Source of the DNA: Actinomycetota bacterium
Lineage (GTDB): Bacteria > Actinomycetota > Thermoleophilia > Solirubrobacterales > Solirubrobacteraceae
Reading direction: 5' to 3'
Assembly (NCBI GenBank): GCA_005883255.1
Contig: VAXS01000187.1
Coordinates: 1 to 15,789, forward strand
Length of the DNA: 15,789 nucleotides
Shown piece after piece: positions 1 through 15,789 of the stretch. A program made the position numbers and the translations under genes. Within the stretch, counting starts at the first letter, position 1; every line of letters begins with the position of its first letter. The notes under the pieces were generated by a model. That model ran no database searches. It saw only the letters and a list, made by a program, of their open reading frames with translations, and was not told the origin of the DNA.

Positions 1-1181
1 AGCGAGACGTCGGTGCGCGAGAACTCGGGGTTGATCTCGTCCATCTCCTTGAGCTGGTCGTAGGGGACGTTGGCCTCGGCCAGCAGCACGTTCATGTGGC
101 CGGGCATGCGGCCCGCCACCGGGTGGATCGCGTACTTGACCTCGATGCCCCGCTCCTCCAGCTCCTTGGCCAGCTCCTGCACCGCGTGCTGGGCCTGGGC
201 CACCGCCATCCCGTATCCGGGGACGATCACCACCTGGCGCGCGTACGAGAGCTGGATCGCCGCGTCGGCCGCGCTGGTCGACCTCACGCTGCGGCCGTCC
301 AGCTCCGCCGCGCCCGGCGCGCCCGCCACCGGCGCCCCGCCGCCGAAGCCGCCCGCGACGATGTTGGGGATCGAGCGGTTCATCGCGTCGGCCATGAGCT
401 TGGTGAGGATCGAGCCCGAGGCGCCCACCAGCATCCCGGCCACGATCATCGCGGTGTTGTTCAGCGCGATCCCGGCCGCCGCCGCGCTCAGGCCGGTGAA
501 GGCGTTGAGCAGCGAGATCACCACCGGCATGTCGGCGCCGCCGATCGGCAGCACCACGAAGTTGCCCAGCAGCGCGGCGGCGATCAGCACGCCCACGATC
601 AGGCCCTGGCTGTGGCCGCCGGCCAGGATCGCCGCCCCCAGCCCCACCGCCGCCGCCAGCAGCACGCCGTTGACCAGCTGCTGGGCGCGGCCCAGCGTGA
701 TCGGCCGTCCGGGCAGGAGCTCCTGGAGCTTCCCGAAGGCGATGTTCGATCCCCAGAACGAGACCGATCCCACGATCGCGCCGAACAGCGAGAACATCGC
801 CACGTACAGCGGGTCGGACGCGTAGCCGCCGCTGTTGCGGAACTCCACCCAGGAGATGAGCGCCACCGCGCCGCCGCCCACGCCGTTGAACAGCGCCACC
901 ATCTGCGGCATCGCGGTCATCTTCACGTTGCGGGCCGCGGGCACGCCCACCAGCGTGCCGATCACGATCCCGGCGGCGATCAGGCCCCAGTTCCCCATCC
1001 CCTTGGTCAGGAGCGTGGCCGCGATCGCGATCGCCATCCCCACCGCGGCGAGCAGGTTCCCGCGCACCGCGGTGCGCGGATGGCGCAGCCGGACCAGGCC
1101 GTAGATGAACAGCGCGAAGGCGACGATGTAGCAGGCCCGGATGAAGTTCCCGTCCTGCAGGAAGGTGGCGCTCGGCGTCAT
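1..1181 (-). CDS. pntB: NAD(P) transhydrogenase subunit beta, 3' end outside window
   Basis: Beta subunit of the proton-translocating membrane transhydrogenase, which moves hydride between NADH and NADP+ at the cost of proton motive force. The window holds the first 393 codons. The N-terminal half is a series of hydrophobic helices (membrane domain II). The NADP(H)-binding domain III follows, with the hallmark VIVPGYGMAVAQAQHAV near 181-240, then KYAIHPVAGRMPGHMNVLLA and EMDEIN close to the window edge. In E. coli PntB this stretch lies just before the conserved GANDTVNP segment, so roughly 70-80 residues should lie outside the window. The ATG at 1181-1179 overlaps the TGA of pntAb (ATGA), which implies translational coupling. 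Identity is secure from motif order. Confidence 0.96.
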   Translation of the reverse strand, partial: MTPSATFLQDGNFIRACYIVAFALFIYGLVRLRHPRTAVRGNLLAAVGMAIAIAATLLTKGMGNWGLIAAGIVIGTLVGVPAARNVKMTAMPQMVALFNGVGGGAVALISWVEFRNSGGYASDPLYVAMFSLFGAIVGSVSFWGSNIAFGKLQELLPGRPITLGRAQQLVNGVLLAAAVGLGAAILAGGHSQGLIVGVLIAAALLGNFVVLPIGGADMPVVISLLNAFTGLSAAAAGIALNNTAMIVAGMLVGASGSILTKLMADAMNRSIPNIVAGGFGGGAPVAGAPGAAELDGRSVRSTSAADAAIQLSYARQVVIVPGYGMAVAQAQHAVQELAKELEERGIEVKYAIHPVAGRMPGHMNVLLAEANVPYDQLKEMDEINPEFSRTDVS

Positions 1182-1486
1182 TCCTTCCCGTCGCGCTCCG
1201 CGTCCTCGCCCGGCCGGCCCTTGAACATCTCCAGCATCCGGTCCGTGACCAGGAAGCCGCCCACCACGTTGATCGTCCCGAAGGTGATGGCGATGACCAG
1301 CAGGACCTTGTTGAGCACGCCGTGCCCGGACAGGCCCAGGACCAGCAGGCCGCCCAGGATCACGATCCCGTGGATGGCGTTGGTCCCCGACATCAGCGGG
1401 GTGTGCAGCGTGTTCGGCACCTTGGAGATCACCACGAACCCCACGAAGCCGGCGAGCACCAGGATGGCCAGGTTGGTGACCAGCAT
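1178..1486 (-). CDS. pntAb: NAD(P) transhydrogenase alpha subunit, membrane part (split PntA)
   Basis: A 102-residue integral membrane protein matching the C-terminal membrane domain of PntA in species where alpha is split into two polypeptides. Three hydrophobic segments are visible at about residues 3-21, 37-55 and 59-80. Family-typical stretches include VPNTLHTPLMSGTNAIHGI and GTINVVGGFLVTDRML, followed by a short charged cytoplasmic tail. It would pair with PntB to form the proton channel. The start overlaps the preceding stop as TGATG, and its own TGA overlaps the pntB start, so the three pnt genes form one translationally coupled unit. The length is normal for this split subunit. Confidence 0.95.
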   Translation of the reverse strand: MLVTNLAILVLAGFVGFVVISKVPNTLHTPLMSGTNAIHGIVILGGLLVLGLSGHGVLNKVLLVIAITFGTINVVGGFLVTDRMLEMFKGRPGEDAERDGKE

Positions 1487-2622
1487 CAGGCGGCCACCCC
1501 CGCCGCCTTGCGCGCGCCCTCGTGCACGATCTCCCCGTCGCGGGTGACGCAGGCCCCGGCCACGATCTCGTCGTCGAAGTCCAGCTCCAGCGCCCCCTGG
1601 TCGTCGGTCATGAGCTCCAACAGCGCCTGGATGTTGCGCGCGTAGAGCTGGGAGGCGTGCTCGGCCATCGTGGACGGCAGGTCGAGCGGCGCGGCGATCG
1701 TGACGTCGTGGCGGACCACGGTCTCCCCCGGCTCCGAGAGCTCGCAGTTCCCGCCGGCCTCGCCCGCCAGGTCGACCACCACGCCGCCCGGCTTCATGCG
1801 CTCGACGGCGTCGGCGGTCACCAGCCGCGGGGCCGGGCGGCCCGGGACCAGCACGGTGGTGATGACCACGTCGAACTCCGTGATGTTGTCGCTGAGCTCG
1901 CGCTGCTGGGCCGCCTTCTCCTCGTCGGTGAGCTCGCGCGCGTAGCCCCCCTCGCCCTCGGCGCCCTTGCCCGCCTCCAGCTCCAGGAAGCGCGCGCCCA
2001 GCGACTCCACCTGCTCCTTGACCGCGCTGCGCACGTCGTAGCCGGTGACCGCCGCGCCCAGGCGGCGGGCGGTGGCGAGGGCCTGCAGCCCGGCCACGCC
2101 GGCCCCCAGCACCAGGACCTTGGCCGGGCGGATGGTGCCCGCCGCGGTCATCAGCATCGGGTAGAACCGGCCGAGCAGCTGGGCGCCCACCAGCGCCGCG
2201 CGATAGCCGGCGACGTTGCTCTGCGAGGACAGCGCGTCCATGGACTGGGCGCGGGAGATGCGGGGCACGGCCTCCAGCGCGAAGGCGGTGACGCCGGCGT
2301 CGGCCAGCGCGCGGACCGTGTCGGGAGCGGTGAGGGGGCTCAGGAAGCCGATGAGCACGCTCCGGGAGCCCAGGCGGCCGATCTCCTCGGGGCTGGGCGG
2401 GGCCACCTTCACCACCACGTCGGCGCCCCAGACGTCATCCGTGTCGGCGGCGATGCGGGCGCCCGCCTCCTCGAACAGGGCGTCGGGGATGAGCGCCGCC
2501 TGGCCCGCGCCGGCCTCCACCAGCACCTCGTGGTCGCCCTGCGTGAGCTTCCGTACGACCTCGGGAACCAGGGCCACGCGCTTCTCCCGCTGCGCGGTCT
2601 CCTTCGGGACGCCGACTCTCAT
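1486..2622 (-). CDS. pntA: NAD(P) transhydrogenase alpha subunit, NAD(H)-binding part
   Basis: A 378-residue soluble domain I of transhydrogenase, which binds NAD(H) and exchanges hydride with NADP(H) on PntB. It begins MRVGVPKE, typical of the PntA/alanine dehydrogenase family. It carries the R-Q-D loop region RISRAQSMDALSSQSNVAGY (about 121-140) and the Rossmann motif VLGAGVAGLQA with GAGVAG at 173-178. It also has VVVDLAGEAGGNCE near 281-294, where the nicotinamide end binds in this family. No membrane helices are present because these are on the separate pntAb. The start lies 23 bases after the stop of the upstream ECF-toroid gene. No clear Shine-Dalgarno sequence precedes the ATG, so it may be leaderless from a weak local promoter or read through from upstream. 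Confidence 0.96.
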   Translation of the reverse strand: MRVGVPKETAQREKRVALVPEVVRKLTQGDHEVLVEAGAGQAALIPDALFEEAGARIAADTDDVWGADVVVKVAPPSPEEIGRLGSRSVLIGFLSPLTAPDTVRALADAGVTAFALEAVPRISRAQSMDALSSQSNVAGYRAALVGAQLLGRFYPMLMTAAGTIRPAKVLVLGAGVAGLQALATARRLGAAVTGYDVRSAVKEQVESLGARFLELEAGKGAEGEGGYARELTDEEKAAQQRELSDNITEFDVVITTVLVPGRPAPRLVTADAVERMKPGGVVVDLAGEAGGNCELSEPGETVVRHDVTIAAPLDLPSTMAEHASQLYARNIQALLELMTDDQGALELDFDDEIVAGACVTRDGEIVHEGARKAAGVAA

Positions 2623-2645
2623 GAGGGCCGGGACCGTATCGAGAT

Positions 2646-4334
2646 TCAGGTCAGCGCCGTCATGAGGACGGCCATGACACGCCCGCTCTCGTGGGCCAGC
2701 GCCAGCACCGCCAGGGAGACCGGCTCCGAGGAGGTCGAGGCCGCTCCCGACGAGCGCCTTGTGCTCTTGGCGGCCGCGGCCGCCGCCGCCGCGGCGCTGG
2801 CCCGCCGGCCCGCGCGCGGCACCGCGGCGATCGGCAGCGGGCGCCGCTGCAGGGCGGCCAGCGCCTGGCCCGTGACCCACACCGGGGTCTGGCCGCTGGT
2901 GCGCGAGTAGCGGACGCTCCCGTCGGGCGCGATCAGGCTGCGCAGGAAGCCCAGCGGAGAGCGAGACCCGGAGCGCCGGACCGTGTCGGGGTTGCGGCCG
3001 GCGGCCACCAGCGCCTGGACGGCGTAGGCGGTGGACTGCGCGTTGGAGCCGTCGCCCGGGGTGAGGGGGAAGCCTCCGTCGGCGTTCTGCTCGCGCCGCA
3101 GGAAGGCGACGGCCCGGGTCACCGTCCGGGAGCTGCGGGCACCCGCCGCCACGAGGCCCTCGATGGCCACGGCCGTGTCGTCCACGCCGCTCTGCCCGCC
3201 CCGCCCGAACGTGTTGAAGCCGCCGTCGCGGTTCTGCTGCGAGCCCACCCAGGTCCGCGTCCGCCGGACGGCGCTCGCCGACGCCGACATCCCCCCCGCG
3301 TGGTAGGCCAGCTCGGCGAACGCGCTCAGGACGACGCCGCCGGCGAACGAGCCGTCCGAGCGCTCCCGCCGGCGCAGCTGCGCGACCAGGTCGCGTCCCG
3401 CGAAGCGACGGGGCGAGACGCCGGCGGCCCCCAGCAGGACGATCGTCCGCTCCAACTCGCCGGTGTCGTTGAGCTGCCCGGCGTGGGCCCGGACGTAGTC
3501 GATGGCCGAGTGCCCTCCCCGGCGGACGTCGAGCGGGTTGCGGCCGGCGGCGGCGAGTCCCAGGCCGGCCCAGCCGGTGAACAGCTGGGACGAGCCCTGG
3601 CCGGGGGCGGCGCCCCAGCCGCCGTCCGCGTTCTGGGCGCGCGCGAGGTAGCCGGTGGGGCTGGCGGCCAGGGCGGGCGCGGCGGCCAGGGCCAGCAGCG
3701 GCAGCGCCAGGGTGGTCCCGGCGGCGACCGGGCGCCAGGTCACCTCGAAACGGGCCCGGAAGCGGCGCAGCATGCGCAGGATCGCGGGACCGAAGGCGAG
3801 CGCGAACAGCACGTTGCCGGTGGCGTGGGCCACGTCGAAGGGGAACGCGGCGGCGGTGATCCCCGCGAAGCTGCCGCTGGAGGCGTCGGTGTACGTGAGG
3901 AGCGTGGAGAGGTTCATGATCGCGCCGAAGCCGAAGCCGGCCACGGCGCCCGCGGTCGCCAGGGAGAGGCGGCCGAGCCGCGCCCCCGCCAGCCGGCCCA
4001 GCAGCCCGCCGCCCACTCCCACCGCGCCCCAGGCCAGCATCTGGAACGGCGTCCAGGGGCCCTGGCCGAAGAACACGTTCGAGGCCAGCGCCGCCAGCGC
4101 GCCCACGGCGAAGCCGGGCGCGCCTCCCAGCGCGGCGCCGGAGATGAGGACGATGTCCGTGGTGGGCTTGACGTTCGGGAGCGGCGCGAACGCGATCCGC
4201 CCCAGCGCGGCCAGCGCCGCCATGGCGGCGACCAGCGCCACCACGCGCGCCGGCGGACGGCTGCGCTCGTACCACGCGAACCCCACCGCGAGGACGGCGC
4301 CGACGAGGAGCAGCGAGGCGAGCGGCCAGGTCAC
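2646..4334 (-). CDS. ECF transporter S-component fused to an extracytoplasmic alpha/alpha-toroid domain
   Basis: A 562-residue two-part protein. Residues 1-190 are very hydrophobic with about six helices. They contain FAPLPNVKPTTDIVLISGAA (49-68) and FFGQGPWTPFQMLAWG (88-103), a pattern I associate with substrate-binding S-components of ECF importers. A basic stretch (RMLRRFRARF) and a further hydrophobic segment ending in AxA (203-224) would carry the chain outward. Residues about 228-500 are a repeat domain of the prenyltransferase/squalene-cyclase fold, with QNADGGWG (234-241), QQNRDGGFN (366-374), EQNADGGFP (415-423), GVDDTAVAIEGL (383-394) and AAGRNP twice (262-267, 444-449). A polyalanine linker and a weakly hydrophobic tail end the protein. 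The GTG start overlaps the ecfA stop (GTGA). Riboswitch control, DUF4430 neighbours and pduO suggest cobalamin as substrate. Substrate is inferred; the fusion is read directly in one frame. Confidence 0.85.
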   Translation of the reverse strand: MTWPLASLLLVGAVLAVGFAWYERSRPPARVVALVAAMAALAALGRIAFAPLPNVKPTTDIVLISGAALGGAPGFAVGALAALASNVFFGQGPWTPFQMLAWGAVGVGGGLLGRLAGARLGRLSLATAGAVAGFGFGAIMNLSTLLTYTDASSGSFAGITAAAFPFDVAHATGNVLFALAFGPAILRMLRRFRARFEVTWRPVAAGTTLALPLLALAAAPALAASPTGYLARAQNADGGWGAAPGQGSSQLFTGWAGLGLAAAGRNPLDVRRGGHSAIDYVRAHAGQLNDTGELERTIVLLGAAGVSPRRFAGRDLVAQLRRRERSDGSFAGGVVLSAFAELAYHAGGMSASASAVRRTRTWVGSQQNRDGGFNTFGRGGQSGVDDTAVAIEGLVAAGARSSRTVTRAVAFLRREQNADGGFPLTPGDGSNAQSTAYAVQALVAAGRNPDTVRRSGSRSPLGFLRSLIAPDGSVRYSRTSGQTPVWVTGQALAALQRRPLPIAAVPRAGRRASAAAAAAAAAKSTRRSSGAASTSSEPVSLAVLALAHESGRVMAVLMTALT

Positions 4335-5962
4335 GGGAGCACCTCCAGGGTCGAAGCTTCTGCACGCGCCGCCGCGAGGAGGGCGGCGCCGGCGGCGGGG
4401 TCGAGCGCCTGGCCCGCGCCGCCCAGGATCCGGGCGGTCTCGGTGGCGAAGTGCCAGCCGCCGGCCAGGACCTCGCCGGCGGGCCCGTCGGCCACCGCCT
4501 CCCCGTCGCCCAGGAGCACGACCCGGTCGGCCGCGGCGGCGGCCAGCTCGGGATCGTGCGTGGCGACCAGCACCGCGGTTCCGCCGGCGGCCACCTCGCC
4601 CAGCACGGATGCCAGCCGGGCGCGGTGGGCGCGGTCCATTCCCCGTGTGGGCTCGTCCAGGCACAGCGTCGCCGGCCGCTCCTGGCCACCCATCACGATG
4701 GCCAGCGCCAGGCGCTGGCGCTCGCCGCCCGAGAGGTCGCCGGGGTGACGCTCGGCCAGGTCCTGGAGGCCCGCGGCGCCGAGGTCGGCCGGGTCCAGCT
4801 CGTCGGCCACGCGCTCGTGCACCAGGTAGTCGCCGGGGGTCTGGAGCAGCAACGCCACCCTCCCGCCGGCTCGAATGCGCCCCCGGGTGGGCTCGAGCAG
4901 GCCGGCGGCCAGCCGCAGCAGCGTGGACTTGCCCGCGCCGTTGCGGCCCATGAGCGCCACCCGTTCGCCGGGCGCCAGCCGCAGGTCGACGCCCCGCAGC
5001 GCCGCCCGTCCCCGCGGCCACTCGAACCACACGCGCTCGAGGTGCAGCGCCGGAGCGGGGGCGGAGCGGCGGCGCAGCCGCAGGCGCGAAAGGCGACCGT
5101 CGGGGGTGCTCGGCTCCGGCTCGTCGGGCGCGCCGGGCAGCAGCCCCTGGGCGCGCAGCGCCGCGCGAGCCTCCTTCACGCCGGTGGGCGGCGGGCGCAG
5201 GCCCGCGCGCGCGAACAGCTGGGCGCCCGGCGTCTGCAGCGCAGGCGCCGCCACCGCGGCCCACTCCAGGAACTCGCGCGGCGGCGCGTCGCAGGCGACG
5301 GTCCCGCCGGCCAGCGCGACCACGCGATCGGCCGCCGCCAGGCAGCGCTCGAGGCGATGCTCGGCCAGCAGGATGGCGGTCCCCCACTCCTCGTTGAGCC
5401 GGCGCAGGAGCCAGATGAGCTCGTCGCCCGCCACCGGGTCGAGCTGCGAGGTGGGCTCGTCGAGCGCCAGGAGGCGCGGGCGCGGCGCCAGCGCGGCGGC
5501 CAGCGCGACGCGCTGCAGCTCGCCGCCGGAGAGCTCGTGGGTGGGGCGGTCCAGCAGCTGGGCGATCCCCAGCGCCAGCGCCGCCTCCTCCACGCCCCGC
5601 GCCACCGCTCCCGTCCCGTCGCCGCGGTTCTCCAGCGGCAGGGCGATCTCCGCTCGCACCGTCCCCATGAGCACCTGGGTCTCGGGCTCCTGCAGGACGG
5701 TCCCGCACACGCCGGCCAGCGCGGCCGGACCGTGCTCGCGGGTGTCCATCCCGCCCACCTCCACGCGCCCGGCGACGTCCCCTCCGTGGAAGTGCGGGAC
5801 CAGTCCGCAGGCGGCGCGCACCAGCGTGGACTTGCCGGAGCCCGACAGCCCGCACACCACCGCGAGCTCCCCGTCGGCGAGCTCCAGCTCGACGCCGCGC
5901 AGCGCCGCCCCGGCGGCGCCGGGGTAGCGGTAGGTCAGGCCCTCGATCCGCAGGGCGCTCAC
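4331..5962 (-). CDS. ecfA: ECF transporter ATPase, two ABC domains in one polypeptide (EcfA1-EcfA2 fusion)
   Basis: A 543-residue cytoplasmic protein with two complete CbiO/EcfA-type ATPase domains, which power import by ATP hydrolysis on the EcfT scaffold. Domain 1 (1-235) has Walker A GLSGSGKST (38-46), Q-loop Q91, signature LSGGE (144-148), Walker B LLALDEP (164-170) and switch His202. Domain 2 (about 306-505) has GRNGAGKST (339-347), Q374, LSGGE (410-414), LCLDEP (433-438) and His469. All catalytic residues are present in both halves, so both sites look active. A proline- and charge-rich linker joins them. Most ECF modules encode two separate ATPases; fused forms are known. The GTG start at 5962 overlaps the ecfT stop, and its own stop overlaps the S-component GTG. 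Confidence 0.95.
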   Translation of the reverse strand: MSALRIEGLTYRYPGAAGAALRGVELELADGELAVVCGLSGSGKSTLVRAACGLVPHFHGGDVAGRVEVGGMDTREHGPAALAGVCGTVLQEPETQVLMGTVRAEIALPLENRGDGTGAVARGVEEAALALGIAQLLDRPTHELSGGELQRVALAAALAPRPRLLALDEPTSQLDPVAGDELIWLLRRLNEEWGTAILLAEHRLERCLAAADRVVALAGGTVACDAPPREFLEWAAVAAPALQTPGAQLFARAGLRPPPTGVKEARAALRAQGLLPGAPDEPEPSTPDGRLSRLRLRRRSAPAPALHLERVWFEWPRGRAALRGVDLRLAPGERVALMGRNGAGKSTLLRLAAGLLEPTRGRIRAGGRVALLLQTPGDYLVHERVADELDPADLGAAGLQDLAERHPGDLSGGERQRLALAIVMGGQERPATLCLDEPTRGMDRAHRARLASVLGEVAAGGTAVLVATHDPELAAAAADRVVLLGDGEAVADGPAGEVLAGGWHFATETARILGGAGQALDPAAGAALLAAARAEASTLEVLP

Positions 5963-6819
5963 CGGACGACCCCCCGGCGATCGAGGAATGGCGCGAGCGC
6001 GGCCGCCAGCAGCGCGACGGCCAGCGCGCCGGCCTGGACCGGCGCGCCCAGGCTCAGCCGCGGGTAGGCCACGAAGTCGGTGGGGCCGACCGCCGCGATC
6101 GCCGCCAGCGCCACGATCGCCACCGCGGCGGCGGCGAAGGCCAGGTCGTGGCGCGACCACGGCCGGCGGCGGGGTGGCGGGCGGCGCCCCGCGCCGTAGC
6201 CGCGCAGCTCCAGGGTGGCCGCCACGTCGATCGCGCGGTCCAGCGCGCCGGCGGCGACCGCCCGCACGATCGCCCGCCGCGGCGCGGGACGACCCGGCCG
6301 GCAGCGCTGGGCGTCGGCCAGGCGCCGGGCGTCGCGAGCCAGCACGGGCACCATGCGCGTGGCCAGGGCGGCGGTCAGGGCCGAGCGGTAGGAGACGCGG
6401 CGAAACAGCCGCAGGACCTCGTCCGGGTCGACGGCGGCCGAGTACAGCGCGAAGCACTCGACCAGCAGCAGCGCCCGCAGGCCGAGGACGGCGCCGTACA
6501 CGGTGGCCTCCAGCGTCACGTCGACCTGGCCGAGCACCGGGACCTCGCCCAGCCGGGCGATCACGGTCAGCCCCTCCCGGGCCGCGAGCGGGTTGACCAC
6601 GATGATGAGCGCCGCCAGCGGCAGGCCGATGCGCGCGGCGCGCAGGAGCTCACGGCCCACCCCCGCCGCCGCGCCGGCGCCCGCGACGGCCACGAGCACC
6701 GCCCCCAGCACGATCGGATCGTCCACCACCAGCGCCGCCACCGCCAGCGCGCTGCAGTAGGCGGCGCCGGAGGCGGCGCGCGCGGCATGCAACGGACTGG
6801 GCCGGCGCCGGTAGATCAC
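5959..6819 (-). CDS. ecfT: ECF transporter transmembrane scaffold EcfT (CbiQ family)
   Basis: A 286-residue membrane protein linking the ATPases to the S-component. Hydrophobic helices are visible at about 22-53, 63-78, 105-125, 226-245 and 260-277. The cytoplasmic coupling region contains DAQRCRPG (169-176) and the family signature AATLELRGYGAG (200-211), corresponding to the paired Ala-Arg-Gly-type coupling motifs of EcfT that dock into the ATPase grooves. The VDPDEVLRLFRR stretch is also typical of CbiQ/EcfT. The GTG start at 6819-6817 overlaps the TGA of the upstream DUF4430 gene. That start was preferred because in-frame sequence further upstream is arginine-rich shadow coding. With the following genes it makes a complete ECF module (T, A-A, S). 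Confidence 0.92.
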   Translation of the reverse strand: MIYRRRPSPLHAARAASGAAYCSALAVAALVVDDPIVLGAVLVAVAGAGAAAGVGRELLRAARIGLPLAALIIVVNPLAAREGLTVIARLGEVPVLGQVDVTLEATVYGAVLGLRALLLVECFALYSAAVDPDEVLRLFRRVSYRSALTAALATRMVPVLARDARRLADAQRCRPGRPAPRRAIVRAVAAGALDRAIDVAATLELRGYGAGRRPPPRRRPWSRHDLAFAAAAVAIVALAAIAAVGPTDFVAYPRLSLGAPVQAGALAVALLAAALAPFLDRRGVVR

Positions 6820-7736
6820 GGGCTCGCCTCCGGCGGGACGACGGGGAGCGGCAGCGTCAGCGACGGGCCCACGGCCAGCGCGAAGCGGTGGCTGAGCGTG
6901 CCGGCGTCGAGCGCGCGGGCGGCGGCGAGCATCCCCGCCGCGTCGGTGCCGGTCACCACCCACGTCGTCTGCTGCTCGTGCTCGCCGGTGGCGGCGATCA
7001 GCCCGGTCCCCGGCCCCAGCCGGCGCACGACCCGCCCCCGGGGGTCGAGCGCCCCGATGCTCCGGCCGCTCGCGTCCGGTCGGACGAACACGCCGCTGGC
7101 GCCCGGGCCTCCCTCGAGCCGCCGTGCAGTGGGGTCGGCCCGCAGCTGCGCCCAGGGGCCGATCAGCACGCGCAGGGTCTTGAAGCCGCCGGGCGCCGCC
7201 AGGCTGCTCTGGCCGAAGACGATCCCCGCATCCGTCAGCCTGCGCTCGGCCTCCTGGCAGGCGGCGCCGGCGCCGGGCGCGCAGGCCGCCTGCACCGGAA
7301 GACGATGCCCGTCCACGCCTGAGCGGAACGGCTCCGGGAACGCCCCCACCACCGCCGGGATGGACATCGCCGACGACCAGTCGTGGCGATCCCACCACAC
7401 CCGATCGCCCGCGTGCAGGCGCGTGGACGCCGCCCCGCGCGGAGCCTCGATGCCGTTGACGTAGTAGAACCAGTCGACCTGGCCTCCCCCGCGCAGCCCG
7501 TCGATCGACTGGACGAAGCCCCCGCCGAAGCGGGTGCCCACGCGGAAGCGGCGCTCGAGGAAGCGCATGACGGTGTCGGCGCCCGGGGTCCGCGCGCTGT
7601 GCACCGTCCTGACCGTGCGGGCGCCGAAGTCGTCGCTCACCGTGAGCGAGACGCCCCGGACGCCCTTCCCCGGGCCCAGGCCGCAGCCGCTGGCGCAGGC
7701 GGCCGCGAGGGCGGCGACGACGACGAGTCGCCTCAC
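6816..7736 (-). CDS. DUF4430-domain protein, putative lipoprotein (transcobalamin beta-domain-like)
   Basis: A 306-residue exported protein. The N-terminus MRRLVVVAALAAACASGC is a short basic and hydrophobic signal ending at Cys18. The lipobox (ASGC) is acceptable but not ideal. Residues about 25-120 are a clear DUF4430 domain, with FVQSIDG (74-80), VDWFYYVNGIE (87-97) and LHAGDRVWWDRHDW (107-120). The YYVNG and GDxVxW pattern is the family hallmark and also occurs in the cobalamin-binding C-terminal domain of vertebrate intrinsic factor and transcobalamin. A further globular region (about 125-290) that I do not recognise contains VLIGPWAQLRAD and TWVVTGTDAAG. The GTG start overlaps the upstream stop (GTGA at 7733-7736). 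A role as cell-surface corrinoid capture protein is inferred from fold and neighbours; no binding site was proven. Confidence 0.85.
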   Translation of the reverse strand: MRRLVVVAALAAACASGCGLGPGKGVRGVSLTVSDDFGARTVRTVHSARTPGADTVMRFLERRFRVGTRFGGGFVQSIDGLRGGGQVDWFYYVNGIEAPRGAASTRLHAGDRVWWDRHDWSSAMSIPAVVGAFPEPFRSGVDGHRLPVQAACAPGAGAACQEAERRLTDAGIVFGQSSLAAPGGFKTLRVLIGPWAQLRADPTARRLEGGPGASGVFVRPDASGRSIGALDPRGRVVRRLGPGTGLIAATGEHEQQTTWVVTGTDAAGMLAAARALDAGTLSHRFALAVGPSLTLPLPVVPPEASP

Positions 7737-8365
7737 GTCACCGTCACCTCCACCGGAAAGGCGGGGACGAGACCCGTGGCGGTCGCCGTCGCCCGGTAGC
7801 GGCCGCGGCTGGCTGGCGCCGTCAGGGTGGCACCGCCGTCGGCGCCGGTCGTCGCCGTGGCGGCCGCGAGCGTCACCTGCGCGCCCGCCACGGCCACGCC
7901 GCGACCGCGGTCGTCGTAGCCGCGCACGGTGAGCCGCACCGGCGCGCCCGCCGTCACCTGGCTGGCGGCGGTCAGCGCGAGCGTCCGCTGGCAACCGGTC
8001 GCGCCCATGCGGCAGTAGAACCACAGGACGGGCTGCCCCGCCCGGGCCCGGATCCCCGGGCTCCCGGCGCCCACCCCGGGAGCGCGCCGCCCGACCTTGT
8101 ACACCCAGCCGTCGGCGCCGCGCGCCCGGTCGGGGCCGATCCGATCCACGTACAGCGACTCCGACGCCGCCGGGCTCCGCGCCGAGCAGCCGCCGAAGTC
8201 GCGGACGTGGAAGCCCGGCCCGCCGGCCCGGCGCAACGCGGCCAGCGCGGCCAGCGGCGTGCCGGCGCCCACCGCGCAGCGATGGCCGCTCGCGGGAACG
8301 GTGGTCGCGCGCGCCACCACCGTCCGCGGTCCGCCCAGGACGTGCGCCCGCCCCGCCACCATCAT
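7733..8365 (-). CDS. Second DUF4430-like protein with Ig-like C-terminal domain; true start uncertain
   Basis: Read from the ATG at 8365 this is 210 residues, but the frame stays open upstream. The beta-domain part matches the neighbouring DUF4430 proteins: CAVGAGTPLAALAAL (30-44), FHVRDFGGC (52-60), SLYVDRIGPD (70-79), GWVYKVGRR (86-94) and VLWFYCRMGATGCQRTL (113-129), with several cysteines. Residues about 130-210 form a beta-rich Ig-like module with GADGGATLTAP. The first strand (PRVPMMVAG) begins before the ATG. The in-frame codons at about 8461-8370 encode RAILASALAGFLAGGG and further Ala/Gly/Val, which looks like a signal peptide. So the real start is probably upstream, yet no ATG, GTG or TTG exists there in frame (see the frame-break finding). 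Export and corrinoid capture are inferred. Confidence 0.7.
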   Translation of the reverse strand: MMVAGRAHVLGGPRTVVARATTVPASGHRCAVGAGTPLAALAALRRAGGPGFHVRDFGGCSARSPAASESLYVDRIGPDRARGADGWVYKVGRRAPGVGAGSPGIRARAGQPVLWFYCRMGATGCQRTLALTAASQVTAGAPVRLTVRGYDDRGRGVAVAGAQVTLAAATATTGADGGATLTAPASRGRYRATATATGLVPAFPVEVTVT

Positions 8366-9500
8366 CGGGACGCGAGGAGCGGGCGCGACACTCGCCACCG
8401 CGCCCGCCGCCGCCCCGCCGCCCGCAAGGAAGCCGGCGAGCGCCGACGCCAGGATCGCTCGCCAGGAAGTAGGAGGCGTCGCACCGCCCGGGCCGGAACC
8501 GCTCGACGAACACGCTGTAGAACTGGCACCGCGTGCGCGACCGCAGGGTGGAGACGGAAGCGCTCCCTCGCCGCACGGGCGGGAGCAGGAACGTCCGGCG
8601 CAGGCGCAGGTACGTCGCGTAGAGGCCCGCGCTTCCCGGATCCGAGTGCCCCCGCAGGAGTCGCGGAGCCGTCCGCGTGGTGAACCGCTGCCCGTTGGCG
8701 ATGCCCAGGATCCGCGCGGTGGGGAGATGGTCGACCCCGCCGGTGGCCGAGGCGCCGAAGCGCGCGGGACTCGCCGTCCCACACGTCCCGTCGTCGCCCT
8801 GGTGGACGCAGACGACCAGCGCGTTGGAGCGCACCGAGTCGGTTCGCTCCGCCTTCAGCCGCTGGTCGCCGCGGTCCGAGAGCGTCACCTGCGCGGTCCC
8901 GTCGACGCCGGTGAGCTGCCCGCCCACGCTGGCGCCGGAGATGGCCGAGCCGTCCTGGCCGTCCACCACCTTGACCGCGAACGGCTGGCCGGACTCCGCG
9001 GTCGCCGGGCCGGTGAGCTTCAGCAGGTGGGCCTTGGAGAAGTAGTCGTAGGCGAACAGGACGTCGTCCCCTGGCGCCACCTCCTGCTGGCAGCCTCCGA
9101 CGTTCGAGCTCTTGTAGTTGAGCGCGTAGCCCCAGAACTGCGTGCTGTTGCTGGAGTCGGGACCGATCCGGTCGATCGTGAAGTCCTGGAAGCTGTCGAA
9201 CCAGGTCCCGGCCCAGGTGAAGCCGCCGGCGATCGAGCCGTCGTCCAGCGCGGTGGTCATCGTGGGACCGGGCGTGGGATTGGCGCCGCCGTTGGTCCCG
9301 TCGCAGGCGTGCGGGCCGCTGGCGTCCTTGGTCAGGGTCTTCGCGTTGGTGGTCACCGGACCCTCGAATATCGTCGAGGAGCTTCCCTCGATCCGGAGGT
9401 TCACGGTCACCGGGCCGGCCAGCGCCGGCGCGGCGGCGGCGAGCACGGACAGGAGGAGCAACGCGATCCCCAGGATCGCGCGGCGCGGGAGATGCTGCAT
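8362..9500 (-). CDS. First DUF4430-domain secreted protein of the riboswitch operon; 3' end appears frameshifted
   Basis: Starts at ATG 9500 with MQHLPRRAILGIALLLLSVL, a textbook Sec signal cleaved after ALA at about residue 28. Residues 30-160 are a DUF4430-like beta domain (VNLRIEGSSSTIFEG, CDGTNGG, FTWAGTWFDSFQDF, FWGYALNYK, VLFAYDYFSKAHLLKLTGP). An Ig-like module follows (163-233, with GVDGTAQVTLSDRG). A third module (255-349) contains ILGIANGQRF and the C-x-Y/F-x-ERFRPGRC pattern. The starting frame is clean to Asp349 (8454) and then becomes Arg/Gly-rich. A one-base slip near there enters a frame with SW(x4)PASL that stops at TGA 8362, overlapping an ATG in the same way as other junctions here. 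The start has AAGGGG about 8 bases upstream. Read literally, the first frame stays open to 6816. Confidence 0.75.
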
Positions 9501-9504
9501 CAGA

Positions 9505-9540
9505 GCCACCCCTTTCCCCGAGGGCTTTCGGGCTTGTGGC
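9505..9540 (-). promoter_or_regulatory. Possible riboswitch expression platform (ribosome-site hairpin)
   Basis: Between the riboswitch and the ATG at 9500, two competing foldings are visible. A small hairpin pairs 9528-9532 with 9517-9521 (CCCGA/TCGGG, six-base loop). A larger pairing joins GCCAC (9536-9540) with GTGGC (9505-9509) and would enclose the AAGGGG ribosome-binding site. GCCAC includes part of the 3' strand of riboswitch P1, so ligand binding could switch pairing. No T-run follows, which favours translational over termination control. Which state is OFF cannot be settled by eye. Confidence 0.4.
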
Positions 9541-9701
9541 CGGAGGCAGGTCTCCTGGCTCCCGGGCCGACCCTCCCGCGCCTTCCCGGTCCGCCGTCGG
9601 CGGCCCAGTGGCTGCACGCCTCGCGTGCGTGCGGGGGGCGTCCCCGGTAACAGTGGCGGGTCCGCGCCGGATTCTCACCGGACTTCCCTGGGCCACCGGC
9701 C
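9538..9701 (-). ncRNA. Cobalamin riboswitch (AdoCbl/B12 aptamer)
   Basis: On the minus strand all landmarks are present in order. The P1 5' strand GGCCGG (9701-9696) pairs with CCGGCC (9543-9538). GGGAAGTCCGGTGAGAATCC, then GCGCGG and CCCGCCACTGT, lie at about 9690-9650. GCCACTGGG follows near 9613-9605, GGGAAGGCGCGGGAGG near 9590-9570, and the B12 box AGCCAGGAGACCTGCC at 9560-9545 is a perfect match to the known consensus. The aptamer lies 37 bases before the first DUF4430 gene. In this class, cobalamin binding normally shuts down uptake or biosynthesis genes downstream, so the DUF4430, ECF and toroid genes are expected to be repressed when B12 is plentiful. This is the strongest evidence for the operon's substrate. 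Confidence 0.96.
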
Positions 9702-9715
9702 TATGGACGTTCGAG

Positions 9716-9745
9716 ATCGTATGCTGAATCCGGTATGACCGTCAA
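9716..9745 (-). promoter_or_regulatory. Sigma70-type promoter of the riboswitch operon
   Basis: On the minus strand TTGACG (9745-9740, five of six to the -35 consensus) is followed after 18 bases by TACGAT (9721-9716, TAnnnT -10). Transcription would begin about 9709-9705, just before riboswitch P1 at 9701. The -35 region lies inside the first codons of the divergent adenosyltransferase gene, and the spacer covers its ATG. Position relative to the aptamer makes this credible; no transcript data are available. Confidence 0.6.
9720..9725 (+). promoter_or_regulatory. Possible -10 element of the adenosyltransferase gene (near-leaderless)
   Basis: TATGCT fits TAnnnT and would place the transcript start at about 9732, three bases before the ATG at 9735. 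No Shine-Dalgarno sequence precedes this ATG, which agrees with leaderless translation, common in actinobacteria. No good -35 is visible. It overlaps the opposing -10 of the riboswitch promoter, so the two promoters would compete. Confidence 0.35.
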
Positions 9746-10313
9746 TCTCACTCGCATCTACACGCGGCTGGGCGACAAGGGCGAGACCCACCTCGGGGAC
9801 ATGAGCCGCGTGCCCAAGACCCACCCGCGCATCGAGGCCTACGGCACGGTGGACGAGCTCAACGCGCAGGTGGGCGCGGCGCTGGCGCTGGACGCGGTGC
9901 CGGAGCGCTACCGCGAGTGGCTGCGCCGTGTCCAGAACGACCTGTTCGACGTGGGCGCGGACATCTCGGTGCCCGAGGGCGGCGAGCGCGAGCGCCTGCG
10001 CGTGCGCGCCGAGCAGACCGAGTGGCTGGAGCAGGCCTGCGACGAGGTCAACGCCACGCTGCCGTCGCTGAAGTCGTTCGTCCTGCCGGGCGGGACGCCG
10101 CTGGCGGCGCAGCTGCACGTGGCGCGCACCGTCTGCCGGCGGGCCGAGCGCCGCGCGCTGGACGTGGGCGACGAGCTCAACCCCGAGGTGGTCCGCTACC
10201 TCAACCGCCTCTCCGACCTGCTGTTCATCCTCTCGCGCGGCGCCAACGCCGACGCCGGCGAGGACGAGCCGCTGTGGGAGCCGGGCGGCGGCGCCCCCGA
10301 CGCCGCCGCGTAG
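9735..10313 (+). CDS. pduO: ATP:cob(I)alamin adenosyltransferase, PduO type
   Basis: A 192-residue cytoplasmic enzyme that transfers the 5'-deoxyadenosyl group of ATP to cob(I)alamin, giving coenzyme B12. Family motifs are in the expected order: the ATP-binding N-terminus IYTRLGDKGETHLGD (8-22), RIEAYGTVDELNAQVG (32-47), SFVLPGGTPLAAQLHVART (114-132) with CRRAERR (134-140), and YLNRLSDLLFILSR (155-168). The length is normal for a single-domain PduO/MMAB enzyme. It is transcribed divergently from the riboswitch operon with only 33 bases between its ATG and the aptamer, so import and adenosylation are genetically linked. The two start regions physically overlap. It ends directly against the stop of the convergent gene. 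It could equally be labelled cobO or MMAB-like. Confidence 0.95.
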   Translation: MTVNLTRIYTRLGDKGETHLGDMSRVPKTHPRIEAYGTVDELNAQVGAALALDAVPERYREWLRRVQNDLFDVGADISVPEGGERERLRVRAEQTEWLEQACDEVNATLPSLKSFVLPGGTPLAAQLHVARTVCRRAERRALDVGDELNPEVVRYLNRLSDLLFILSRGANADAGEDEPLWEPGGGAPDAAA

Positions 10314-10556
10314 CTAGCGCTGGGTGAACCAGCCGCCGCGGACCAGGTCGTGGAAGACCACGACGTCGCGCCCGCACGCCGTCACCACCTCCCAGTAGCG
10401 GCGGCGCAGCGGCCGCTCGGTCCACCAGCGGTCCTCCACCAGCCACGACTCGCGCACCGCGTCCACGCGACGGTCGTCCACGGCCAGCGGGCGCCCGTCC
10501 ACGCCGGCCCGGACGCGCGTGCTCCGGGGAAGGCCGAGTTGGCGAGGCCCGGTCAC
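10314..10556 (-). CDS. Small ImuB-associated protein, DUF6504-like
   Basis: An 80-residue protein with the core GVDGRPLAVDDRRVDAVRES, then WWTERPLRRRYWEV and a VVFHDL-GGWFTQR ending. It resembles the small DUF6504-type proteins encoded next to imuB/dnaE2 mutasome genes in actinobacteria; this identification is from memory of the pattern and is tentative. Its GTG start overlaps the imuB TGA (GTGA at 10553-10556), so the two are translationally coupled and presumably co-regulated by the SOS response. No signal, membrane segment or catalytic motif is visible. Conserved Trp and Arg residues would suit a protein or nucleic-acid interaction role, but the function is unknown. Its TAG stop abuts the TAG of the opposing pduO gene with no spacer. 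Confidence 0.65.
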   Translation of the reverse strand: MTGPRQLGLPRSTRVRAGVDGRPLAVDDRRVDAVRESWLVEDRWWTERPLRRRYWEVVTACGRDVVVFHDLVRGGWFTQR

Positions 10557-11752
10557 TCCTCACCCTCGAACGGCGCCAGCATCGCCCGGCGCTCGGGCAC
10601 GCGCGAGTCGGACTGCACCTCGACCACCCGCAGCGCGGCGTCCGCGCCGGCCAGCGCCCGCGCCTGTCCCACCGCCCGGCGCAGTCGGGCCTCGCGCGCG
10701 CCCGCCGCCTCGTCGAGCAGCGGGCGCTGGTCGGTGACCGGCGGACCGAAGCTCTCGACCTCCAGGCGCAGCGACTCGGCGGGCGCGGGAAGGAGGCCCA
10801 GGCGCAGGGCGAGCGCCAGGCGCATCCGCTCGGGGGCGGCCAGCGGCTCGCGGAAGGTGACCCGCTCGCGCCAGGTGCCGCCCTCCACCAGCGTGGCCGA
10901 CAGCGCCACCGCCCGCAGCGTGCGCCCGCGGCGCTCGCGGCGGGCGACCAGGCGGTCGACCAGCAGGCCGAGCGCGTGCTCCAGCGCCGGGCCCGACGCC
11001 GCCTCGGGCAGCTCGAGCGACTCGCGCAGCCGCTCCGCCGGCAGGCGCGGCGTCAGCCGCTCGTCGCGCCCGCTGGCCAGGTCGTGGGCGTGCAGCCCGG
11101 GCGCGCCGAAGCGGTCGGCCACCGCCGCGCGGGACAGCTGGGCCAGCTCGCCCAGCGTGCGCAGGCCCAGCCGCTCGAGCGGCGCCGGCAGCGCCGCCGT
11201 GCGCGCCCGCAGCGCCAGCAGGCGGACGCTCAGCCCGGACAGGTAGGCGCGCGCCTGGTCCTCTCCGCCGCCCACGACCTCGGGCCGCACCACCCGCGCC
11301 CGGGTGGCGGCCGCCAGCGCGCAGAACGCCGTGGGCCCGGCGCCCACCCGGGCCGGCCGGTGAAGCGCCCGGCGGACGGCGGCCAGGATGCCGGCCAGCG
11401 CCCCGCCGTGCAGCCCCCGCAGGCCGTCTGCCTCGAAGGAGGCCAGACCCGGGCGCTCGGGCGCGACCAGCGCCCCGATCCCCTCCAGCCTCCCCAGCAG
11501 CGCCTCCCAGGCCTCGGCCACGCCGGCCGGGTCGGGCGGCACCAGCGCCAGCCGGGGGCAGCGGGCCAGGGCCTCGCCCAGCTGCATCCCCCGCCGGATC
11601 CCGAACGCCTCGGCCGCCGCCGAGACCTCGCCCACCGCCTGCGTCCCGCCGGGCAGCGGGGCCAGGGCGGCCGGCTCGCGCAGCAGCGTCGCGTGCCCTC
11701 CCGCGGCCACCGCGAGCTCGAAGCGGGGAAGGAGGACGCAGACCACGGACAT
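10553..11752 (-). CDS. imuB: ImuB-like protein (catalytically inactive Y-family DNA polymerase homologue)
   Basis: A 399-residue protein of the translesion mutasome, which in mycobacteria works with ImuA' and the error-prone polymerase DnaE2 by docking on the sliding clamp. It begins MSVVCVLLPRFELAVAAG, with the palm strand of Y-family polymerases but without the usual acidic metal-binding pattern. Other typical ImuB stretches are SAAAEAFGIRRGMQLGEALARCPRL (44-68, quoted in part by position), FEADGLRGLHGG (106-117), VGAGPTAFCALAAA (136-149) and LRTLGELAQLSRAAVADRFG (197-216, helix-hairpin-helix-like). The C-terminal region looks like the little-finger and ImuB tail; I saw no clear clamp-binding QLxLF motif. 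Start 11752 was chosen because a LexA box ends one base upstream; an in-frame ATG at 11761 lies within the box. No imuA or dnaE2 is in the window. Confidence 0.88.
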   Translation of the reverse strand: MSVVCVLLPRFELAVAAGGHATLLREPAALAPLPGGTQAVGEVSAAAEAFGIRRGMQLGEALARCPRLALVPPDPAGVAEAWEALLGRLEGIGALVAPERPGLASFEADGLRGLHGGALAGILAAVRRALHRPARVGAGPTAFCALAAATRARVVRPEVVGGGEDQARAYLSGLSVRLLALRARTAALPAPLERLGLRTLGELAQLSRAAVADRFGAPGLHAHDLASGRDERLTPRLPAERLRESLELPEAASGPALEHALGLLVDRLVARRERRGRTLRAVALSATLVEGGTWRERVTFREPLAAPERMRLALALRLGLLPAPAESLRLEVESFGPPVTDQRPLLDEAAGAREARLRRAVGQARALAGADAALRVVEVQSDSRVPERRAMLAPFEGEE

Positions 11753-11766
11753 CGAACGCATGTTCG
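11753..11766. promoter_or_regulatory. LexA (SOS) box at the imuB start
   Basis: A perfect 14-base palindromic site CGAAC-GCAT-GTTCG, flanked as TCGAACGCATGTTCGC. This matches the actinobacterial LexA operator pattern CGAACnnnnGTTCG (mycobacterial TCGAACnnnnGTTCGA). It ends one base before the preferred imuB ATG and overlaps the predicted -10, so LexA bound here would block transcription until DNA damage. Confidence 0.85.
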
Positions 11767-11788
11767 CATCCGCCGGCGGCCCTCGCAA
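11760..11788 (-). promoter_or_regulatory. Candidate imuB promoter
   Basis: Minus-strand TTGCGA (11788-11783) is followed after 17 bases by GAACAT (11765-11760), a weak -10 that overlaps the LexA box. The transcript would start at about the ATG at 11752, predicting a leaderless mRNA. The -35 is fair and the -10 poor, so this is tentative. Confidence 0.4.
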
Positions 11789-11802
11789 GGGGGATGGGAG
11801 GG

Positions 11803-11822
11803 CGCGCGAAGACCTCCGCGCG
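11803..11822. terminator. GC-rich hairpin between protease and imuB genes
   Basis: CGCGCG (11803-11808) pairs with CGCGCG (11817-11822) around an eight-base loop. It lies in the 87-base gap after the protease stop at 11840 and before imuB. There is no T-run on either strand, so it is at best a weak or Rho-assisted terminator. Confidence 0.25.
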
Positions 11823-11839
11823 GCCTTCCCCCGCCCTGC

Positions 11840-12901
11840 TCAGCCCGGGTAGTCCGCGGTGAGCGTGAACGGACCCGCGCCCGACCGCCGCACCACCCGC
11901 ACGGTGGCGTTGGCGGTGGCCGCGGTGGGCTGGCGGCAGAAGACCGCGCTCGCCTGCTTGCTGGCGGCGCCCCCGCCGACGCGGCGAAGCAGGCGACCGC
12001 GGTTGCGCAGCTCGAGGTCGAAGCGTGCGCCCGGGGAGGTCCGCAGTCGCACCGCCAGCTGCCCGTCGAGCGTGGTCACCAGCGCCAGCGCGGCGGTCCG
12101 GCGGCCGGACCCCAGCCGGCCCCGCAGCGTGCGGCGCGACGGCACGCGCCACGGGTTGAGCACGTCGCGCCGGATCGCGGCGAACGCCCCCGCGTCCGGA
12201 CGCATCAGGGGGTTGAACTGCCAGATCACCTGCGGATAGTGCAGGTGGGCGTAGGAGTCGGCGAAGCCCTCGCCGGGGTCGTCCAGGTAGTGCGCGCCCT
12301 GGTCGCCCGGGAACAGCAGGCCCTGGCTCACGCGGCCGCAGATGTGCGCGTAGCTGGCCCAGTACTTCGCTCCCCAGTCGATCGCCATCCAGGGGAAGTC
12401 GCTGCGGAACGACGCGATGTGGTGGCCGTACTCGTGGGTGATCGCGTACTCGCGCGTGAACGGCCCTCCGTGGGACGGCTCGCGATCGGGGATGTACATC
12501 CGCCGCTCCGAGCGCACGTAGCAGGCCAGCACGCCCAGCTCTCCGCCGCAGGCGGCGTTGACCTCGGCCTCGGTCCCGATGAACACGCGCAGGAGCCCCA
12601 GCTCGTCGCCGTGCAGCCGCGAGTCGAGGAAGTCGACGTAGGACTGGGCGCTCCCGCTGACCGAGCGCGACATCGTCACCTGGATGGGCACGCCGTCGGT
12701 GGTCAGGTAGTTGCGGGTGACGGAGCCCGACCGGGCCGCCGGCGCCCGCGGGGGACGGTCGATCACCCGGTCGCGGAAGAACAGGGCCGCCGGGCCGGGC
12801 GGGCCCGCGTGCGGATCCAGGGGCTGCAGGCGCTCCGCCCGCGCCGGCGCGGCCGCGAGCAGCAGGGCGCCCAGCGCGCAGATCAGGCTCGCGCGGCGCA
12901 T
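11840..12901 (-). CDS. Secreted HExxH zinc metalloprotease-like protein
   Basis: A 353-residue exported protein. Residues 1-22 form a signal peptide (MRRASLICALGALLLAAAPA, cleaved around ARA). The middle contains YVDFLDSRLHG (88-98), a Cys pair at 118 and 127, and the zinc motif HEYGHH (156-161). EGFADSYAHL (211-220) follows about 50 residues later, where Glu211 is the likely third zinc ligand, a gluzincin-like arrangement. Residues about 255-353 form a beta-rich C-terminal domain resembling the pre-peptidase C-terminal type, probably a targeting or substrate-contact module. The exact peptidase family was not recognised. The ATG follows the upstream stop by five bases, with GGAGG touching the ATG directly, an unusually short spacing that may limit translation or rely on coupling. 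Confidence 0.8.
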   Translation of the reverse strand: MRRASLICALGALLLAAAPARAERLQPLDPHAGPPGPAALFFRDRVIDRPPRAPAARSGSVTRNYLTTDGVPIQVTMSRSVSGSAQSYVDFLDSRLHGDELGLLRVFIGTEAEVNAACGGELGVLACYVRSERRMYIPDREPSHGGPFTREYAITHEYGHHIASFRSDFPWMAIDWGAKYWASYAHICGRVSQGLLFPGDQGAHYLDDPGEGFADSYAHLHYPQVIWQFNPLMRPDAGAFAAIRRDVLNPWRVPSRRTLRGRLGSGRRTAALALVTTLDGQLAVRLRTSPGARFDLELRNRGRLLRRVGGGAASKQASAVFCRQPTAATANATVRVVRRSGAGPFTLTADYPG

Positions 12902-12906
12902 CCTCC

Positions 12907-14664: not shown

Positions 14665-14702
14665 GCGGGCGGGGGCGGGCCGCGGAGCCCCCATGCTAGT
14701 CG

Positions 14703-15593: not shown

Positions 15594-15606
15594 CCCTGGA
15601 GCTTCC

Positions 15607-15612
15607 TACACT
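15607..15612 (+). promoter_or_regulatory. Possible -10 element before the MmcQ/YjbR-like gene
   Basis: TACACT matches TAnnnT, 11 bases before the ATG at 15624, within the 30-base divergent gap. No convincing -35 is visible upstream. Confidence 0.3.
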
Positions 15613-15623
15613 CGGGACCTCCG

Positions 15624-15789
15624 ATGGCCACCTGGGACGACGTACGCCGGATCGCCCTCGCCCTGCCGGAGACCAGCGAGCGGTCGTCGCGCGACCTGGC
15701 GTCCTGGCGCGTGCGCGACAAGGGGTTCGTCTGGGAACGGCCACTTCGCCCCGGGTCGAGCACCGAGTCGCCAAGGAGGCCCTGCTTGG
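15624..15789 (+). pseudogene. MmcQ/YjbR-family protein, 5' part with apparent internal frame-breaking deletion
   Basis: The first 42 codons read MATWDDVRRIALALPETSER and RVRDKGFVWERPLR, the usual N-terminus of small MmcQ/YjbR proteins, whose function is poorly known. After codon 42 the frame yields PGSSTESPRRPCL, which does not fit the family. The neighbouring frame from 15755 reads VEHRVAKEALL, which resembles the later family stretch normally found about 20 residues further on. This suggests loss of roughly 60 bases plus a frame change, either a real pseudogene or an assembly error. The gene runs off the window end, so its remainder is unknown. It is divergent from the hydrolase with a 30-base gap. 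Confidence 0.6.

Follow-up and report, generated by a model that had tools for sequence, protein, structure and literature searches.

What is taken up, and by what means, when a cobalamin riboswitch heads an operon for exported DUF4430-type proteins, an energy-coupling factor (ECF) module and an S-component fused to an alpha/alpha toroid? The question is raised by contig VAXS01000187.1 (assembly GCA_005883255.1) of an Actinomycetota bacterium from the family Solirubrobacteraceae, class Thermoleophilia, of which positions 1 to 15,789 were analyzed; this whole stretch of 15,789 nucleotides is called the window. A sequence-only reading had proposed that the two folds of the vertebrate B12 carriers lie here on separate polypeptides, which capture a corrinoid and pass it to the ECF importer. 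Our analysis indicates that the cluster very probably encodes a CbrT-type corrinoid importer with accessory parts at the cell surface. The riboswitch, gene content, CbrT homology, predicted folds, and conservation described below come from sequence and prediction.

A probable CbrT-type importer under a cobalamin riboswitch

The operon runs on the minus strand from 9727 to 2646, in the order cobalamin riboswitch, genes A, B, and C, ecfT, a double ecfA, and the gene of the S-component–toroid fusion. The features that define the importer, and the divergent neighbor, are as follows.

9528..9727, minus strand: cobalamin riboswitch aptamer (Rfam RF00174, 64.3 bits, E 3.3e-14)
5959..6819, minus strand: EcfT, CbiQ-like transmembrane coupling protein (PF02361, 55.8 bits)
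4331..5962, minus strand: double EcfA, with both ABC ATPase domains on a single chain (PF00005 in two stretches, 150.7 bits)
2646..4334, minus strand: CbrT-like S-component fused to an alpha/alpha toroid, 562 residues (CbrT homology; AlphaFold2 model)
3732..4334, minus strand: S-component domain, residues 1-201 (6fnp_A match; profile A5)
9735..10313, plus strand: PduO-type cob(I)alamin adenosyltransferase, divergent neighbor (PF01923, 213.8 bits; TIGR00636, 186.3 bits)

The riboswitch match covers the whole RF00174 model (positions 1-189), far above the gathering score of 31.5, and it is the single RF00174 match across the host assembly (1.89 Mb, 72.4% complete). The complete cobalamin riboswitch named in the sequence-only reading was thus confirmed, with one boundary corrected, as the match begins at 9727 and not at 9701. 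A phmmer search with the single S-component sequence retrieved CbrT (6fnp_A, PDB 6FNP) at E 8.7e-13, and the family profile A5 matched 6FNP at E 4e-28, while the Pfam families of ECF S-components gave matches to the window S-component below cut-off only. 6FNP is ECF-CbrT, for which import of cobalamin and cobinamide has been proven by experiment (PMC5997447, sections covered here). The components of a CbrT-type transporter, namely a CbrT-homologous S-component, EcfT, and two ABC ATPase domains, are all present in the window; EcfT, the double EcfA, and an S-component carrying a toroid had been assigned earlier from the sequence, and these assignments hold.

C, EcfT, EcfA, and S each begin with a start codon that overlaps the stop of the gene before by 4 bases, so translational coupling is likely. 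On the opposite strand, the PduO start codon lies 8 bases from the 5' end of the aptamer, and the promoters and leaders of both must therefore overlap. A search of 141 loci found PduO in this divergent position in 16, a number that includes the window and two duplicate contigs; 14 of the loci are distinct.

The riboswitch link in related loci

Relatives were collected at several levels. In the class, 87 of 149 genomes searched at the protein level gave matches (the window's own included; some toroid only), from which 40 stretches were chosen and fetched with their surroundings. In the phylum, a search with the S-component profile gave matches in 106 of 296 genomes (own included), and 20 stretches, mostly on long contigs, were chosen. 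A further set, called the named loci, consists of the best 80 of 223. The window served as the seed for home domain models, which were then extended with the collected loci; the architecture counts refer to loci found via the S-toroid protein. The contigs L114 and L118, being duplicates, were not counted.

At its gathering score, RF00174 was found in 24 of the 25 class loci scanned with Rfam, and the contig of the remaining one (L113) ends just upstream of S. Two home riboswitch models, R1 and R2, were built from 18 and 19 training rows, partly from loci later searched. With these models, a riboswitch was found upstream on the same strand in 30/30 class loci and 39/61 named loci with at least 6 kb of upstream sequence, and in 16/20 other loci of the phylum. 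Eighteen loci ending upstream without a match (15 named, 3 class) were excluded from these counts. Seven of the 61 named loci belong to the window's own group (L032-L035, L037-L039) and were all positive, leaving 32/54 for the others. The short variants of Bacillota lie near the B12 families: L103 scored just at the RF00174 cut-off and L110 at the AdoCbl-II cut-off, and L047, L055, and L041 scored below the Rfam cut-off. Where loci were scanned against all of Rfam, no riboswitch for another vitamin was found. A search for co-occurrence with B12 riboswitches across the class had been suggested by the sequence-only reading.

Some loci carry further riboswitches. In L133, a c-di-AMP riboswitch lies further upstream, ahead of the B12 riboswitch. 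L134 (15418-15806) and L135 (11332-11733) each have two nearby matches on opposite strands, one heading the importer cluster and the other pointing away to a toroid-type match. L187 (9206-18081) holds four riboswitch model matches and two toroid-type matches. In L188 (12925-14864, plus strand), the riboswitch points away from S, ahead of a divergent toroid and a DUF4430-type match; this locus was counted as a miss.

B12 metabolism of the hosts

Ten genomes of the order were surveyed, including that of the window (G000, 72% complete). B12-binding domains were present in 10/10. CobN was found in 2/10, and CbiC in those same two; neither of these two marker families was found in G000 and 7/9 relatives (8/10 in all). 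FecCD, the BtuC family, was above cut-off in 3/10 genomes, one of them weak at 30.4 bits, and in 7/10 none of CbiC, CobN, and FecCD was above cut-off. The absences in the window's own genome are weak evidence because of its incompleteness, and the same pattern was seen in five relatives of 93-99% completeness (G047, G035, G023, G121, and G065). The absent markers together with the B12-binding domains suggest that most hosts use B12 with neither the synthesis markers nor the usual importer. DUF4430 matches lie at the importer cluster in nine of the ten genomes; in G011, where the cluster contig is broken, the match is on contig C145. There (1082-5124), it lies near two BtuC-family (FecCD) genes, and G011 also has CbiC and CobN; this genome possibly holds two B12 importers side by side.

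Corrinoid uptake, as the sequence-only reading had it, is therefore well supported by the riboswitch, the CbrT homology, the PduO neighbor, and B12-using hosts that mostly lack the tested synthesis markers.

DUF4430 proteins and their one-chain relatives

Between the riboswitch and ecfT lie the genes of the candidate surface proteins.

8442..9500, minus strand: gene A, divergent DUF4430-like (PF14478, 19.2 bits, under the cut-off of 23.8; frame by GC content at third codon positions, GC3; counterpart in L112)
7733..8467, minus strand: gene B, divergent DUF4430-like, start codon missing (DUF4430 models built without B)
6816..7736, minus strand: gene C, DUF4430, transcobalamin C-terminal-like (PF14478, 44.1 bits, cut-off 23.8; family alignment A4)
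8395..8470, minus strand: zone of reading-frame change (GC3 profile; comparison with L112)

Among the three, PF14478 is above cut-off in gene C only, which has a GTG start overlapping the stop of B and a lipoprotein-like start. Gene A has a signal-peptide-like start, then a DUF4430-like domain and about 190 residues that match nothing in Pfam; both starts were judged by eye, without a predictor. For gene B, the Pfam search gave no DUF4430 match. Against DUF4430 models built without the protein in question, A scored 14.1 and 12.8 bits and B scored 18.1 and 14.7 bits, with E-values computed for 5 sequences only. The DUF4430 proteins in family alignment A4 are very divergent. The GC3 frame switches between about 8455 and 8395, and A, with no stop codon, continues there out of frame. 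In L112, from the same genus, A has a normal stop and B is a separate gene; compared with it, the window lacks the beginning of B and some 45-50 residues at the end of A, owing to a true deletion or to an error in the assembly. Of the three DUF4430-type proteins claimed from the sequence, C is thus firm, and A and B are divergent, weakly matched, and not two intact genes.

The architectures of the relatives were compared with the home models. Class loci mostly have the order DUF4430, DUF4430, EcfT, EcfA, and S fused to the toroid, or the same with a separate toroid; Bacillota loci mostly have DUF4430, EcfT, EcfA, and S, with or without a toroid fused to the DUF4430 domain. In loci reaching 7 kb or more upstream and 2.5 kb or more downstream, DUF4430 was found in 48/49 named and 27/27 class loci, and the toroid in 36/49 and 22/27, its partner varying among loci (fused to S, fused to DUF4430, or free). 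The S-toroid fusion occurs in 28 rows, two of which are duplicate contigs. A single chain with the toroid followed by DUF4430 occurs in 31 loci, all Bacillota-type and some nearly identical to one another; in the window, as the sequence-only reading had proposed, the two folds are encoded by separate genes.

Among PDB sequences, human transcobalamin-2 ranked first (E 0.001) for the DUF4430 profile of the Bacillota-type relatives. An AlphaFold2 model was made of the one-chain protein of L049, which has two membrane-length helices between toroid and DUF4430. B12 carriers occupied rows 1-12 of its VIA list and rows 1-15 of its Foldseek list, and only transcobalamin, haptocorrin, and intrinsic factor were the best PDB matches over both domains. 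These results support the earlier suggestion of transcobalamin-type folds. On the transcobalamin match and the genomic context, the DUF4430 domains likely bind the corrinoid.

Some relatives have unusual arrangements. The Bacillota locus L068 (1804-11972) carries two toroids, one chained with two DUF4430 domains, together with two more DUF4430 genes and a riboswitch; the second toroid lies downstream of S and is closer to the S-fused kind. The archaeal loci L044 and L073 (Methanosaeta/Methanothrix, 8452-10903) have a DUF4430 domain and a toroid akin to the S-fused ones, and in these stretches neither an S-component of the CbrT-like family nor an Rfam B12 riboswitch was found.

The toroid behind the S-component

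Two features follow the S-component domain in the fusion protein.

3660..3728, minus strand: hydrophobic segment with an AxA motif after the Arg-rich end of S (putative internal export signal or anchor)
2817..3668, minus strand: alpha/alpha toroid, residues about 223-506 (SQHop_cyclase_C, 47.1 bits)

The AlphaFold2 model of the S-toroid protein (mean predicted local distance difference test score 89.5, predicted template-modeling score 0.71) is confident for both S and toroid. The linker between them has low confidence and no predicted helix. The hydrophobic segment with AxA is present in 26/26 fused rows, the window included, AxA being a weak motif in Ala-rich sequence. As the segment after S is shaped like an internal export signal, the toroid is most likely outside the membrane. 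At its C terminus (2649-2800, minus strand), the fusion has an alanine-rich tail and then a predicted helix (residues 540-561). The window toroid also matched NF053823 (SCO2321 family membrane protein) with 92 bits and E 3.6e-26, the family cut-off being 300 bits.

Proposed mechanism and alternative explanations

For corrinoid binding by each part, the outside position of the toroid, the clamp, and the hand-over, we infer the following sequence of events. When corrinoids are scarce, the B12 riboswitch would switch on a dedicated CbrT-type ECF importer. The DUF4430 proteins, of which at least one is probably a lipoprotein, would bind or present the corrinoid outside the membrane through the transcobalamin beta-domain fold. 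The toroid would be exported by the internal signal behind S and positioned above the outer mouth of the S-component, where, together with a DUF4430 domain, it would most likely form the second half of a corrinoid clamp and hand the ligand down. The CbrT-like S-component, EcfT, and double EcfA would then carry the corrinoid through the membrane. We consider this explanation as a whole, from importer to hand-over, probable. For its most particular step, the closing put forward in the sequence-only reading, in which the S-linked toroid and DUF4430 would jointly clamp the same corrinoid, the balance tips slightly in favor; by analogy, the one-chain relatives and intrinsic factor speak for it, and the cyclase-like fold and separate subfamily of the toroid weaken it. 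Only tentatively do we propose a split transcobalamin, in which the tethered toroid and a lipoprotein or secreted DUF4430 protein would close over the corrinoid atop S as the loading step of an ECF transporter.

A number of observations weigh against this explanation. Genes A and B are damaged in the window assembly. Homologous operons without a B12 riboswitch, which the sequence-only reading had named as evidence to the contrary, do exist in part: 22/61 named loci, including the modeled L049, had no match to R1 or R2, four of these 22 searched against all of Rfam gave none, and the 22 count against a universal riboswitch link; moreover, RF00174 was above cut-off in only 16/40 genomes behind the named loci. 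A mixed DUF4430 profile that includes the window reached transcobalamin at E 0.31 only. When the L049 model was laid on whole B12 carriers, Foldseek gave a root-mean-square deviation of 6-15 Å and template-modeling scores of 0.42-0.53, so the placing of its domains agrees only roughly with the carriers, and AlphaFold2 was itself trained on B12-carrier entries too. For the window model, the top structural matches of the toroid in Foldseek and VIA were squalene-hopene and drimenyl-diphosphate cyclases, and no B12 carrier stood among the 50 matches listed, which does not exclude that family; no S-component was among them either, and both absences arise because the toroid fills the lists. Toroid sequence profiles likewise had no B12 carrier among the matches listed (two of the lists giving the best 60 of 100 and the best 60 of 71). 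The S-linked and DUF4430-linked toroids form separate subfamilies, and L068 seems to carry one of each, so their jobs may differ. The home models found no cluster toroid in 5/27 class loci or 13/49 named loci, and the cyclase motif DXDD survives in 5/15 S-fused toroids, the window's own subfamily.

The cluster could also be a corrinoid importer whose toroid stands outside the clamp, as a structural domain, as one facing the cell wall, or as a dock for DUF4430 on S that does not touch the ligand. The fold closest to cyclases among the matches listed, the distinct subfamily, and the loci with no cluster toroid found all fit this possibility, as does the motif YS...QTPVWVT of the S-fused toroids, where most Bacillota toroids have a His-containing end motif. 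However, the toroid recurs in most named and class loci with a changing fusion partner, and the two subfamilies are clearly homologous (hhalign probability 99.4, in a comparison whose Bacillota training set itself contained the DUF4430-linked L068 toroid). We regard a toroid outside the clamp as possible but rather doubtful. An improbable variant is that the ligand is another corrinoid or tetrapyrrole, such as cobinamide, pseudo-B12, or haem, instead of cobalamin. Haem ECF systems belong to a different family, and control by a cobalamin-family riboswitch would favor cobamides. The great divergence of the DUF4430 proteins is compatible with another ligand, and ECF-CbrT imports cobinamide besides cobalamin (PMC5997447, sections covered).

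A class II terpene cyclase in a lipid or hopanoid cluster, with an incidental riboswitch, would explain why the best structure and profile matches listed are squalene-hopene and drimenyl-diphosphate cyclases, and why DXDD is kept in a third of the S-fused toroids and its last two Asp in 9/15. Yet DXDD is absent in 36/43 toroids of alignment A3 (present in 7/43), the window reads GVDDT, there is one barrel only, it is fused to a CbrT-like S-component, and the B12 riboswitch is upstream in all but one of the class loci scanned with Rfam. On the absence of DXDD in those 36 toroids and in the window, a cyclase was rejected as very improbable, although the window's own subfamily partly keeps the motif. 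A CbiMNQO-like ECF transporter for cobalt or nickel, controlled by B12, is still less credible. Cobalt importers are often under B12 riboswitches, and EcfT falls in the CbiQ Pfam family; against this, the S-component is CbrT-like (E 8.7e-13), the CbiQ equivalog TIGR02454 scored 36.4 bits on the window EcfT against a cut-off of 111.8, and 8/10 genomes have neither CbiC nor CobN, so that these hosts would not incorporate cobalt into a corrin. This candidate was rejected on the S-component and the equivalog score. We retain corrinoid import with a toroid that would most likely contribute to the clamp; the interpretation given by the sequence-only reading is supported in part.

A putative promoter

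One further feature was noted at the 5' end of the riboswitch.

9716..9745, minus strand: promoter-like site TTGACG-18-TACGAT (consensus scan of 9400-10000)

The scan gave 1 such site against a mean of 0.0 over 50 shuffles, which alone is no evidence of function.

Comparison with known systems

The S-component family CbrT was reportedly predicted by Rodionov in 2009. Intrinsic factor, transcobalamin, and haptocorrin combine an alpha/alpha toroid with a DUF4430-type beta domain, and both types are present in the window operon; in contrast to the animal carriers, they are on different polypeptides, probably linked to the membrane, and the window toroid is nearer to cyclases among the structural matches listed. 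The ECF-CbrT transporter of Lactobacillus delbrueckii has, like the window, a homologous S-component, EcfT, and ABC ATPases (PMC5997447, sections covered). Its ECF module is shared by several S-components, whereas the window has a private module with a double ATPase in an operon with DUF4430 and toroid, and its S-component has an extra N-terminal hydrophobic segment. In L182, L183, L184, and L201 (one genus, genomes of 7-10 Mb), a toroid, EcfT, EcfA, and S follow an upstream riboswitch model match; their toroid is a separate gene, unlike the fusion of the window, and the home DUF4430 models found no match there.

Bacterial operons of this general type are not new. Burroughs, Balaji, Iyer, and Aravind (2007; PMC1796856, sections covered) described bacterial transcobalamin-type domains that have a toroid fused before or after them and lie in operons with genes like CbiO and CbiQ, and predicted B12 scavenging for these operons; the hosts usually lack B12 synthesis, and the animal carriers were proposed to be transferred from low-GC Gram-positives. 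The prediction of transcobalamin-like B12 scavenging operons in bacteria is thus already theirs, and the claim of the sequence-only reading that no bacterial system of this layout is well described is right only in part. The window shares with those operons secreted transcobalamin C-terminal-like domains, toroids, CbiO/CbiQ-like genes, paralogous genes side by side, and hosts mostly short of B12 synthesis genes, and, as in their SLBB/transcobalamin-like operons, its DUF4430 gene adjoins CbiO- and CbiQ-like genes. In the sections covered, their toroid shares a chain with the transcobalamin-like domain, and no S-component, riboswitch, or S-toroid fusion is mentioned. A similar case appears in a proteomics paper on L. 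rhamnosus, where a lipoprotein is annotated as "additional lipoprotein component of putative cobalamin ECF transporter" and a DUF4430 protein stands beside an rtpR gene (PMC9963975); this is annotation only, with no toroid or mechanism in the parts covered. In the open-licence literature, we found no statement of a toroid joined directly, through an export signal, to a CbrT-like S-component, of the CbrT identity of the S-component in DUF4430/toroid operons, of their riboswitch link over many genomes, or of a two-domain structural match of a one-chain relative.

A survey of gut micronutrients lists CbrT and regards B12 transporters as still to be identified in numerous gut genomes (PMC6593275, part covered). 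The cluster offers a concrete riboswitch-marked candidate for a B12 transporter in Bacillota and in the window's phylum, and it joins an S-component family proven by experiment, CbrT, to the bacterial relatives of intrinsic factor and transcobalamin. The 2007 proposal that the animal B12 carriers came from bacteria thereby becomes testable by binding and structure. If the split clamp is real, the one-chain proteins of Bacillota and the animal carriers would be two further arrangements of an ancient bacterial uptake clamp.

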